Shown here in pieces: positions 6,092 through 41,973 of a DNA stretch of 64,000 nt. Numbering within the stretch: the stretch's first letter is position 1; the number at the start of each line of letters is the position of its first letter. The position numbers and the translations under genes are program-made. The stretch is taken from positions 1 through 64,000 of the forward strand of contig NZ_JAQFWP010000040.1 in NCBI RefSeq assembly GCF_027706745.1, given 5' to 3'. A model generated the notes under the pieces. The model was not told the DNA's origin and did no database searches. It worked only from the letters and a program-made list of their open reading frames with translations. This stretch comes from Nocardiopsis suaedae. GTDB lineage: Bacteria > Actinomycetota > Actinomycetes > Streptosporangiales > Streptosporangiaceae.

Positions 6092-7093
6092 ATGCGCTAC
6101 ACCACCATCGGAAGCGGGCGGTCGGCCCGCCGTGTGAGCACCCTGTGCCTGGGCGTCCTGCCCTTCGGCACCACTGTCGACGAGGGCGCGTCCTTCCGGC
6201 TGCTGGACCGGTTCGTCGAGGCCGGGGGAACGTTCCTCGACACATCCAACAACTACGCCTTCTGGACGCCGGGCGGGCGGGGCGGGGAGAGCGAGGCCCT
6301 CCTGGGACGCTGGCGGGCCGCGCGCGGGATCGGCGACGAGGTCGTCGTGTGCACCAAGTCCGGCGCCCTGCCCACCACACCGGGCACGAGCTACGAGGAG
6401 GGGTCGGACGGGCTGTCCCCCGCCGCCCTGGACGCCGCCGCCGAGGCCGGCGCCCGCCGCCTGGGCACCGAACGCCTGGACGTTCTCCTCGGGCACATCG
6501 AGGACCACGACACCCCCATCGAGAAGACCGCCGAGGCCTACGCCTCCCTGGTCGAGGAGGGCCGCATCGGCATGTGGGGGCTCAGCAACCACACCCTGCC
6601 GCTGCTGGAGCGCGCGCGGGCCGCCGACACGGCCGCCGGGCGACCGGGGGCGCAGGTGCTGCAGTACCGCTACACCTATGTGCGCCCGCGCCACTGGGAC
6701 CCCATGGCCAACGGGCGGCAGGTGGTGGCCGACGACGGCATCCTGGAGTTCGTCCGGCGCGGCTCCCCGGTGTCCGGGCGGCCGGTGATGATGGCCTACT
6801 CCCCCCTGCTCCACGGCGGCTTCACCCGCCAGGACCGGCCCCTGCCCGAGCTTTACGACCACGCCGGGACGCGTCGGCGCCTGGCCGCCCTGGACGAGGT
6901 GGCAACACGCACCGGCGCCACCCGCAACCAGGTGGTGCTGGCCTGGCTGATGGGGCACGAGGTGCCGGTCGTGCCGGTGTTCGGCGCCAGCACGCCCGGG
7001 CAGCTGGAGGAGGCCTTGGAGGCGGCCGACCTGGAGCTGACGGCGCAGGACCGGGAGGTCCTGGACGCGCCCGACCCCGCGCCGGACGCCTGA
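6092..7093 (+). CDS. Aldo/keto reductase
   Basis: A 333-residue NADPH-dependent aldo/keto reductase TIM barrel. The catalytic tetrad is visible: Asp50 and Tyr55 in TFLDTSNNYAFW, Lys89 in VVVCTKSG and His135 in VLLGHIEDHD. The C-terminal cofactor segment GATRNQVVLAWLMG is present, followed by GASTPGQLEEALEA. Members reduce aldehydes and sugar or terpenoid ketones; the substrate is unknown. It follows the NTF2-like gene by 60 bp and is closed by a perfect GC-rich hairpin at 7127-7162. Confidence 0.92.
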   Translation: MRYTTIGSGRSARRVSTLCLGVLPFGTTVDEGASFRLLDRFVEAGGTFLDTSNNYAFWTPGGRGGESEALLGRWRAARGIGDEVVVCTKSGALPTTPGTSYEEGSDGLSPAALDAAAEAGARRLGTERLDVLLGHIEDHDTPIEKTAEAYASLVEEGRIGMWGLSNHTLPLLERARAADTAAGRPGAQVLQYRYTYVRPRHWDPMANGRQVVADDGILEFVRRGSPVSGRPVMMAYSPLLHGGFTRQDRPLPELYDHAGTRRRLAALDEVATRTGATRNQVVLAWLMGHEVPVVPVFGASTPGQLEEALEAADLELTAQDREVLDAPDPAPDA

Positions 7094-7126
7094 GGCCCCG
7101 CGCCGCGGCCGCCCTGGCCCTGCTCG

Positions 7127-7162
7127 GTGTGCCACGTCGCGGACGCCCGCGACGTGGCACAC
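7127..7162 (+). terminator. Hairpin after aldo/keto reductase
   Basis: A perfect 16-bp stem, GTGTGCCACGTCGCGG paired with CCGCGACGTGGCACAC, around a four-base ACGC loop. It begins 33 bases after the stop codon. There is no U-tract, which is common for actinomycete terminators. Confidence 0.65.
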
Positions 7163-7237
7163 CGGGGCGGCGTCCGGGAGCCGCGACGGCCTTCGGCCGT
7201 CAGGGCGGCCACGGCTCCGGGGCGCGCGGCATGATGA

Positions 7238-7536
7238 GGTCGCGTCCGCTGGAGTGGGGGAGCTTCCGGTGGCCGTCCGCCGACAGGCGTCCCGCCGGTG
7301 CGGACACCTCAGGCCGGGATCCCCGAGATCTCGAGGGAAACGACGCTGCAAGCGCGGTTGCTCCTCGTGTTCGGCGCAACGTGTGGAGTTGCGTCGACCG
7401 CTGGGGGACTTTGGCCCGACCAGGGGTTCGGAGGGGGGCAGGGCCCGTCCCTGGCCGCCATCGCCTGGGCCCTGGGGCCGGGCCGACCGCGCCGGCCTGG
7501 TTCGAGGGAAACGGCACCACTCCAGCGGACGCGTCC
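7238..7536. mobile_element. MITE-like element, 299 bp, with TIRs and 8-bp target duplication
   Basis: The left end 7238-7257 reads GGTCGCGTCCGCTGGAGTGG. The right end 7517-7536, reverse-complemented, reads GGACGCGTCCGCTGGAGTGG: a 20-bp terminal inverted repeat with one mismatch. The element is flanked on both sides by CATGATGA (7230-7237 and 7537-7544), an exact 8-bp direct repeat as left by transposition. No transposase reading frame is supported inside, so it would be a non-autonomous element. A third copy of the end sequence lies at 41954-41973. Confidence 0.72.
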
Positions 7537-7544
7537 CATGATGA

Positions 7545-7759
7545 CCTGCGCAGATGAGGGCCGGGCGCACTGGTGTGCGCCCGTGGGGAGCCGGCCGCCC
7601 CGCCGTGCTCGGGGCGCCGGATCCGGCCATCCCTTTTGTCGGGGAACAGCGCTCCGTGTTCACGATCGTGCTGCTCAGTGACGGGGTTGTGATGTGTACA
7701 CGGCCGCAGAACCGGTATAAACCCCCCATTCCGTGCCCCCGAGACGTGGAAGGACACCG
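7545..7759 (+). promoter_or_regulatory. Leader/promoter region of the dicarboxylate symporter gene
   Basis: Non-coding interval between the MITE-like element and the symporter start. It is locally less GC-rich near 7670-7725, where promoter-like AT clusters occur (GTGATGTGTACACGG and CGGTATAAACC). GTGTACAC at 7694-7701 is a perfect 8-bp palindrome that could be an operator half. An AAGGA ribosome-binding site lies just before the ATG at 7760. No single promoter can be fixed. Confidence 0.35.
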
Positions 7760-9184
7760 ATGTCCCCACAGAGCGAGCGCCGCTCCCTATGGCGCAGCTA
7801 CCTGGAGTTTCCCCTGATCTGGAAACTCGCCATCGCCCTGGTGGCCGGGCTGGCCGCCGGGCTGGCCCTGAACGCGCTCGGCGGCGCCGCGTTGACCGGC
7901 GCCGTCCGCCAGGTCCTGGAGGTCCTGGGCCAGATCTTCCTGCGGCTGCTGCAGATGCTGGTGTTCCCGCTGATCATCAGCACCCTCATCGCCGGCGTCT
8001 CCTCGGTCACCCCCCAGCGCCTGGGGCGCATCGGCTTCAAGGTGTTCCTGTTCTACCTGGCCACCTCGGCGTTCGCGATCACCATCGGGCTGGTCCTGGC
8101 GCTGATCGTCTCGCCGGGCGCGGGACTGAGCATGCCCGGCGACGGGGAGGAGGCCGCCGAGCGGCCCCCGCTGTCGGAGACGCTGCTCAACATCGTCCCC
8201 GACAACCCCTTCCAGGCGCTGGTCGACGGCAACGTCCTGGCCATCATGCTGATGGCCATCGTCTTCGGGCTCGCCCTGACCTTCATGACCGGCAGCGACG
8301 ATGAGCGCGTGCGCGGCCTGGGCCTGTTCCTGCGGCGCGGCGTCGACGGCGCGGTCGAGCTGGTCTTCCTGGTCATCCGCGGCGTCCTGCAGTACGCCCC
8401 GGTCGGCGTGTTCGCCCTCATCGCGGGCGTCATGGCCGACACCGGTGTGGCGGCGATCCTGCCGCTGGCCAAGCTCACCGGCGTCGTCTACTTCGCCATC
8501 GCGCTGCAGATCGGCGTCTACGTCCTGCTGCTGCTGGCCTTCCGCGCCAACGTGCGCCGGTTCTTCGGCGCCGCCAAGGACCCCATGCTCACCGCGTTCG
8601 TCACCCGCTCCTCCAGCGGCACCCTCCCGGTCTCCAGCCGGGCCGCCGAGAAGATGGGCGTGCACGAGGGCGTCTACGGCTTCAGCCTGCCCCTGGGCGC
8701 CACCATCAACATGGACGGCACCGCCATCTACGTGGGCGCGGCGACCGTGTTCGTGGCCAACATCGCCGGGGTGGACCTGACCTTCGGCCAGATCCTCACC
8801 GTGGTGGCGGTGGGCGTGCTGGCCTCGGTGGGCACCGCCGGGGTGCCCGGCGCCGGGCTGATCATGCTGTCCATGACCGTCACCTCCACCGGGCTGCCCA
8901 TGGCGCCCGTGGCCCTGGTCGCCGGGATCGACGCGATCCTCGACATGGCCCGCACCATGTGCAACGTCACCGGCGACCTGACCGGTACCCGCATCATCGC
9001 CGGGACCGAGAAGGGCATGCTGGAGGATCCCGACGCGCCGCAGGACCCCCAGGGCGCGGCCGATGAGCCCGGGGCCGGAGTCGGAGCCCCGCCCGGCGAA
9101 GGGCCGGACACCGCTCCCGAGGTGGCGTCCGCCGCCGAGGGGGGCGGGTCGGCCGAAGGCGCCGACAAGGGCGGTACCGCCTGA
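7760..9184 (+). CDS. Dicarboxylate/amino acid:cation symporter (DAACS family)
   Basis: A 474-residue integral membrane transporter of the GltP/DctA family, which imports dicarboxylates or acidic amino acids with H+ or Na+. The hallmark serine-rich re-entrant loop SSSGTLPVSSRAAEKMG is present. So are the TM7 motif GATINMDGTAIYVGAATVF and the TM8 region ARTMCNVTGDLTGT containing the conserved Asp/Asn residues. The last 50 residues form a hydrophilic Ala/Gly/Glu-rich tail not needed for transport. It starts with ATG at 7760 after an AAGGA site, and a long bidirectional hairpin follows the stop. Confidence 0.93.
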   Translation: MSPQSERRSLWRSYLEFPLIWKLAIALVAGLAAGLALNALGGAALTGAVRQVLEVLGQIFLRLLQMLVFPLIISTLIAGVSSVTPQRLGRIGFKVFLFYLATSAFAITIGLVLALIVSPGAGLSMPGDGEEAAERPPLSETLLNIVPDNPFQALVDGNVLAIMLMAIVFGLALTFMTGSDDERVRGLGLFLRRGVDGAVELVFLVIRGVLQYAPVGVFALIAGVMADTGVAAILPLAKLTGVVYFAIALQIGVYVLLLLAFRANVRRFFGAAKDPMLTAFVTRSSSGTLPVSSRAAEKMGVHEGVYGFSLPLGATINMDGTAIYVGAATVFVANIAGVDLTFGQILTVVAVGVLASVGTAGVPGAGLIMLSMTVTSTGLPMAPVALVAGIDAILDMARTMCNVTGDLTGTRIIAGTEKGMLEDPDAPQDPQGAADEPGAGVGAPPGEGPDTAPEVASAAEGGGSAEGADKGGTA

Positions 9185-41880: not shown

Positions 41881-41953
41881 CGCCCGCGACGGCGGCGCCC
41901 GGCCTCCCCCTGCGTCGTGCCGACCGCGCCGACCCGGCCAGAGGGGAACGGCA

Positions 41954-41973
41954 CCACTCCAGCGGACGCGACC
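41954..41973 (-). repeat. Third copy of the MITE terminal repeat
   Basis: Read on the minus strand it is GGTCGCGTCCGCTGGAGTGG, identical to the left end of the element at 7238-7536. Similarity continues inward (TGCCGTT(C/T)CCCTC, then GCGCGGTCGGC) for about 60 bases, more like the right end. No second end is found nearby, so it is a truncated copy. Confidence 0.7.

Follow-up and report, generated by a model that had tools for sequence, protein, structure and literature searches.

A probable IS256-type miniature element with a layered interior between two genes of Nocardiopsis suaedae

Short elements whose ends resemble those of a larger element have been described under the names MITEPsy1 and MITEPsy2, and the first of these was trapped moving in vivo (excerpts of PMC3189936). 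MITEPsy1 is 100 nt long, duplicates 4 nt and probably derives from an IS5-type element, while MITEPsy2 has Tn3-type ends (excerpts of PMC3189936). The element that we describe here differs from both in that its ends are of IS256 type, and from MITEPsy1 also in its duplication of 8 bp. The targeting of repeated palindromes by insertion sequences (IS), with IS copies at one position of the palindromic repeats, is likewise known. In excerpts of PMC1525189, five REP-targeting families are named (IS3, IS110, IS4, IS256 and IS5), IS30 not being among the five, and a table places IS1655 near REPs at low ratios. A natural IS30 hot spot is nearly palindromic, and the insert separates its halves (excerpts of PMC9333248). 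In contrast to the cases in these two sources, as far as the excerpts go, the palindrome in our locus lies inside an IS256-type miniature non-autonomous element (MITE), and only a remnant of the inner element is left.

IS1164-like IS in Streptomyces, Pseudonocardia and Rhodococcus records resemble our MITEs in having 8-bp duplications and ends that mostly read GGTYRCGTCC...GTGGTGTA. Compared with them, the element in our window (the whole stretch of N. suaedae DNA that we analysed, 64,000 nucleotides) has no intact transposase gene and shows similarity in about its first 22 bases only. It also carries half of a palindrome and the scar of a second transposon. A MITE of IS256 type is an already known kind of element; here the nesting and the orphaned family stand out. 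Our literature search, which lay mostly outside subscription journals, returned no paper on Nocardiopsis MITEs with terminal inverted repeats, and there is thus a slight indication that the family is so far undescribed.

Structure and place of the 299-bp element

The original prediction claimed a 299-bp element with inverted ends and an 8-bp duplication, and its coordinates, its ends and both copies of the duplication were verified. The octamer CATGATGA is found at 7230-7237 and again at 7537-7544, as perfect direct copies (8/8 bases) that we take as the left and right target-site duplications, and the two copies enclose 299 bp (7238-7536). The first 20 bases of this interval, GGTCGCGTCCGCTGGAGTGG, agree with its reverse-complemented right end, GGACGCGTCCGCTGGAGTGG, at 19 of 20 positions. 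The inverted arms extend over 30 nt with 83% complementarity, and occupy 7238-7267 on the + strand and 7507-7536 on the − strand. The remainder of the left (‘B’) arm (7268-7320, + strand) is common to other copies in the N. suaedae genome, several loci matching query positions 42-101. The right (‘A’) arm, which includes the right terminal inverted repeat, covers 7478-7536 (− strand).

With up to three mismatches, the end 20-mer occurs at three places in the 64-kb window (7238, 7517 and 41954), against a chance expectation of 0.06 on average; none of 100 shuffles reached three. Of these, 41954 falls within a family copy that consists of a solo right arm (41916-41973, + strand) and is separate from the 299-bp element.

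Two + strand ORFs flank the element: one for an aldo/keto reductase, with its end at 7093, and one for a sodium:dicarboxylate symporter. Behind the reductase gene, at 7127-7162, the sequence contains a strong inverted repeat (GTGTGCCACGTCGCGG...CCGCGACGTGGCACAC), possibly the terminator of this gene. Two ORF translations across the 299-bp element matched no Pfam family, and alignment revealed gene fragments only. The earlier statement that no transposase is inside was thus correct for an intact gene, but it does not extend to gene pieces, since 7411-7426 and 7439-7477 read as start pieces of a transposase gene, probably of IS30 type, as discussed below.

The region is GC-rich and has a strong predicted fold (calculated without a shuffle control), as might be seen if the arrangement had arisen by chance or were a structured RNA feature instead of a transposon. 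However, an Rfam scan of 6900-7900 returned 0 matches at E ≤ 1. Moreover, the dispersed copies, the duplication statistics and the ends in common with IS256 elements, all presented below, make such an explanation vanishingly improbable, and we treat the interval as a transposon.

We also compared the locus with those of relatives. The symporter gene was found in three of five genus relatives: N. chromatogenes (G001), G002 and N. halophila (G005). At these three symporter loci there is no CATGATGA and there are no paired ends, and the surroundings of the insertion do not align; single weak end matches (4-5 mismatches) are present in the loci of G002 and N. halophila. All three genomes have a short intergenic stretch ahead of the symporter gene, and the neighbour ahead of it in N. 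halophila is not an aldo/keto reductase gene. A promoter-side block is largely conserved.

The repeat family and the likely source of its ends

The element belongs to a dispersed family. A BLAST search with a 315-bp query found at least 53 matching pieces (pieces, not elements) in the own genome (G000), among the best 40 of 303 candidates. Counts of the 22-nt end, with at most one mismatch, were 17 for the own genome, 27 for N. chromatogenes, four for G002, 54 for N. halophila and 0 for G003 and G004; a backward control pattern gave 0 in all six Nocardiopsis genomes. An exact scan for the end in named genomes, from which the own-genome records may be absent, yielded 25 stretches. N. halophila DSM 44494 accounts for 19 of these and N. 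chromatogenes YIM 90109 for three, and the remaining three are single matches, in Streptomyces sp. cf386, Planotetraspora thailandica and an Acidimicrobiia MAG. The Acidimicrobiia match, as well as five stretches with a 19-mer in viral contigs, lay within long open frames and were rejected.

Inverted pairs of the end, which the original prediction had proposed to look for elsewhere, exist in number. Across four same-genus genomes (G000, G001, G002 and G005) we found 64 different paired elements of 94-299 bp, the window copy among them, 15 being in the own genome. In this set, drawn from the loci of the four genomes with L169-L198, L239-L240 and L296-L325 left out, ends differing from the consensus at no more than four positions and spaced by 90-330 bp were paired by lowest mismatch, with the flanks ignored; copies truncated at a contig end, or that have lost one of their ends, are outside the count. 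The same ends occur on family copies with lengths of 128 bp and about 185 bp. In N. halophila MITEs (e.g. L155, L157, L158 and L159), the left end is followed, about 30 bp further in, by a second end-like motif such as GGCCGCGTCCTTGTGAGCGGTG, as if the ends had been partly duplicated.

A perfect 8-bp duplication flanks 17 of the 64 paired copies (10/28 in N. halophila, 3/16 in N. chromatogenes, 2/15 in the own genome and 2/5 in G002). Relaxing the match to seven or eight of the eight bases raises this to 24 of 64, compared with 10 of 4032 mismatched pairings (at least seven bases); the match is below 7/8 in the other 40 copies. With stricter ends (summed mismatches of at most two), 12 of 36 copies have an 8/8 duplication. 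Because the ninth base matches in just four of the 17 perfect copies, the duplication length is 8. Copies reaching 7/8 or 8/8 make up the smallest fraction in the own genome (3/15), which we read as a reflection of age.

An IS with like ends, also proposed earlier as something to look for, was found in Streptomyces sp. cf386, where an exact 21-nt end and the stop codon of a 412-aa gene are about 55 bp apart. This gene encodes a protein that matches PF00872 at 1.2e-142 and the NCBIfam IS256 model at 9.2e-104, and the first 20 bases of the window element, within its left terminal inverted repeat, are identical to the end of this IS256-family element. The other end of the Streptomyces copy is 1427 bp away, with 7/24 mismatches to the consensus, and the copy has no duplication. 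Altogether we examined 22 IS elements, namely this one, nine in plasmid records and 12 in wider-family genomes. When all positions were searched, 13 of the 22 proved to have paired ends flanked by a perfect 8-bp duplication; one of the other nine is a record without flanks. The duplication length thus agrees with that of the MITEs (8 bp in 17/64). One plasmid relative, with 71.5% identity to the Streptomyces transposase, is annotated ‘IS256-like element IS1164 family transposase’, and the annotation of this one relative is the basis of our IS1164 label.

The consensus end is GGtCGtGTCCGCTGGaGTGGTGga for 96 MITE ends (48 of the 64 elements) and GGTcaCGTCCangGanGTGGTGTA for 36 IS ends (18 of the 22 elements, without L341, L342, L344 and L372, which have no clean outer end pair). 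The motifs GTCC at positions 7-10 and GGTG at positions 19-22 are near-invariant in both MITE and IS ends, although the conservation in MITEs is partly by construction, their ends having been picked by match to the consensus. Beyond the ends, no similarity between MITEs and IS elements was seen by eye. Two further records may be mentioned here. A 1428-bp Streptomyces plasmid record (L371; NZ_CP129141.1, 1-1428) begins and finishes exactly at two IS256-type ends and has the appearance of a single IS; it may be a transposition circle or an artefact of assembly. The Planotetraspora end (L332) stands beside a 34-residue match to an IS256 C-terminus (62% identity), and the ORF at this place has no Pfam family.

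Since both the ends and the duplication length are in common, IS256 is the family that likely mobilises these MITEs in trans, judging from sequence comparison. Eight-bp duplications are not unique to IS256, and DDE_Tnp_1 matches occur in all six genus genomes, so we also considered mobilisation by another family making duplications of this length, e.g. the ISL3 or DDE_Tnp_1 groups. However, none of 15 DDE_Tnp_1 loci has an end pair within four mismatches each (a few weak pairs exist at 4-6 per end), and ISL3 matches, absent from G000, G001, G002 and G005, are limited to three loci in G003 and G004 that have no paired ends. With no close end pair, or no match at all, these transposases were rejected as partners. 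With these two transposase groups searched, and as IS256 elements themselves carry these ends, we consider mobilisation by another family highly unlikely. The claim of a non-autonomous transposon with inverted repeats and an 8-bp duplication is upheld by the 64 paired copies together with IS elements of like ends and duplications. Based on its ends, the family copies and the duplication statistics, the interval 7238-7536 is very probably an IS256-type (IS1164-like) miniature element, non-autonomous and with a layered interior.

A dispersed palindrome and the remnant beside it

The interior of the window element begins with the left half (7327-7357, + strand) of a palindrome, GATCTCG...CGAGATC, whose right half is absent here. 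Next comes what remains of the 5′ region of an element with a transposase gene, probably of IS30 type (7358-7477, + strand). The boundaries of both features were set by reading.

The palindrome, which is 56 nt long in nearly all copies, is represented by 51 distinct sequences in the loci examined, and by 42 distinct sites in the own genome within these loci (L061-L090 and L109-L128). Its outer stem is conserved, while its inner stem differs, with three kinds distinguished by reading; one example of each kind gave folds of −46 to −57 kcal/mol. At least one IS256-type end lies within 200 nt at nine of the 42 own-genome sites, and none at the other 33. Paired MITE copies contain the palindrome in 3/15 cases in the own genome, 1/16 in N. 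chromatogenes, 0/5 in G002 and 15/28 in N. halophila, counts that miss degenerate palindromes. A crude GC-based ORF rule, applied without a control, classified 26 of the 33 solo sites as lying in convergent (11), tandem (13) or divergent (2) settings, and a gene end is located within 31 nt at nine of the 11 convergent sites.

In an alignment of five loci, the sequence after the palindrome half of the window matches G002:C11 and the own-genome contigs C5, C14 and C97. A blastn comparison of the window interior with G002:C11 gave E-values of 3.8e-6 and 2.5e-5. The G002 counterpart reads VARPGALTPGHRQVLENMWAQGASMAAIARAMGVSPATVGRELDRNG, an HTH_38 domain; in the longer copy (L150), the encoded N-terminus matches HTH_38 at E 2.8e-12, and the window keeps fragments only. 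It retains TTGGCCCGACCAGGGG and then, past a deletion, a stretch reading QGPSLAAIAWALG. By comparison with L150, the first codons of the inner transposase gene (TTG GCC CGA CCA GGG G) lie at 7411-7426 (+ strand). The second piece of this gene is at 7439-7477 (+ strand), where QGPSLAAIAWALG corresponds to QGASMAAIARAMG in L150, and is also supported by the blastn match to G002:C11.

An HTH_38 domain alone is no proof of IS30. A tblastn search in plasmids returned five records, two of which are annotated as IS30 family transposase (weak matches, E 5e-4 and 1e-3). Against NCBIfam, the 52-residue inner fragment, which contains no catalytic part, had no IS30 match and weak sub-cutoff matches to other families. 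From these matches the inner remnant is probably IS30-type. No second (right) end of the inner element was recognised by eye in the remnants.

The inner sequence stands beside a palindrome half at all six places inspected (the window, C5, C14, C97, C56 and G002:C11), a small set chosen by sequence. Both palindrome halves flank the remnant at C5 (L111) and C14 (L110), and one side is present at G002:C11, C97 and C56; right halves, checked by pattern at C5, C14, C97 and C56, have 1-6 mismatches. A motif scan returned ten places, of which the five at four or fewer mismatches are remnants and the five at 5-6 were taken for chance, and the sixth remnant (C56) was recognised by eye.

This arrangement suggests that the palindrome is the likely insertion target of the inner element. 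The adjacency in six of six remnants would also be explained if the palindrome arms were extended inverted repeats belonging to the inner element itself. However, the palindrome is dispersed over the own genome without the inner element, at the 42 sites described above. Furthermore, the remnants lie in palindromes of different inner stems (GGGAAAGCGCCGCTA at C14 and GACGGAAGTGCTG at C5), and despite these different stems the inner sequence begins at about the same GTGGTTTC. We thus regard it as unlikely that the arms belong to the inner element, and favour the palindrome as its target. A wider proposal, which we put forward tentatively and think doubtful as a whole, is that the IS256-type MITEs of this Nocardiopsis group carry and thereby spread the 56-nt palindrome, which could act as an IS30-type insertion hot spot, and that nested copies decay to compound elements.

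Present mobility, proposed history and meaning

The original prediction further held that the genome contains, at another place, an autonomous partner by which the element is mobilised, and this part was not borne out. PF00872 (IS256) has no match in the draft assemblies of the own genome, G003, G004 and N. halophila; G002 has a single full match, and N. chromatogenes a single broken fragment. An IS1164-like transposase is absent at 1e-60 from all six genus genomes, and present in 36 of 150 wider-family genomes. The genus genomes are drafts (139 contigs for the own genome), and as drafts lose repeats, these absences are compatible with a collapsed copy. Only in other genera did we see elements that combine these ends with an intact transposase.

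Further candidate partners were rejected. The inverted pair of the IS256 element in G002 (L246), 12 nt long, is a different one (AACGGTGTAACT), and a search at five mismatches gave no matching ends. The IS256 fragment of N. chromatogenes (L335), a PF00872 piece, has no ends at up to seven mismatches of the 24-mer; two weak 5-mismatch places at this locus were read as chance. Finally, a 2.7-kb end pair (L203) was considered as an autonomous element, and has no transposase in its ORF list, by reading, and flanks without a common duplication.

Because no IS256 transposase was found in the own draft genome, the window copy is probably stranded and now immobile. A different situation is conceivable, in which the genus does have a partner IS256 that the draft assemblies lack, and the family is maybe still active, at least in N. 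halophila. Two contigs of this species break at different insertion sites (G005:C258:1-33 and G005:C270:17092-17122; L213 and L214), in both cases 31-33 bases into a GGTCGCGTCCGCTGGAGTGGTGTAACTCCGT end that has the GTGTA of autonomous IS ends, and the share of perfect duplications in N. halophila (10/28) also speaks for such a partner. On the other hand, N. halophila contigs break inside ordinary MITE copies too, and the assembly of this species has neither a PF00872 match nor an IS1164-like transposase at 1e-60. We therefore consider a missing partner possible but improbable, and retain the reading of a stranded window copy.

The following history would account for the structure of the locus. 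An IS256-family transposase, acting in trans on the 22-24-nt ends, would have inserted the MITE between the aldo/keto reductase and dicarboxylate symporter genes, and this insertion would have created the 8-bp CATGATGA duplication. In some copies the family arms flank the 56-nt palindrome, and the window lineage would descend from such a palindrome-bearing MITE. A second element, probably IS30-type, may have entered near the centre of the palindrome, either before or after the MITE insertion, and deletions would have removed most of this element and the right palindrome half, leaving 299 bp. The order of these events is our reconstruction.

For the genus, the findings tie a Nocardiopsis repeat family to a source, as its ends are IS256/IS1164-like. 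The family outnumbers its transposase, with 15 to 28 paired copies in three genomes examined, two of which yielded no IS256 transposase and the third a broken fragment only. The probable nested history within 299 bases is one of layered genome parasites. Lastly, the dispersed palindrome is both a candidate insertion target and a candidate structure of gene 3′ ends, and its solo copies may act at the 3′ ends of transcripts.
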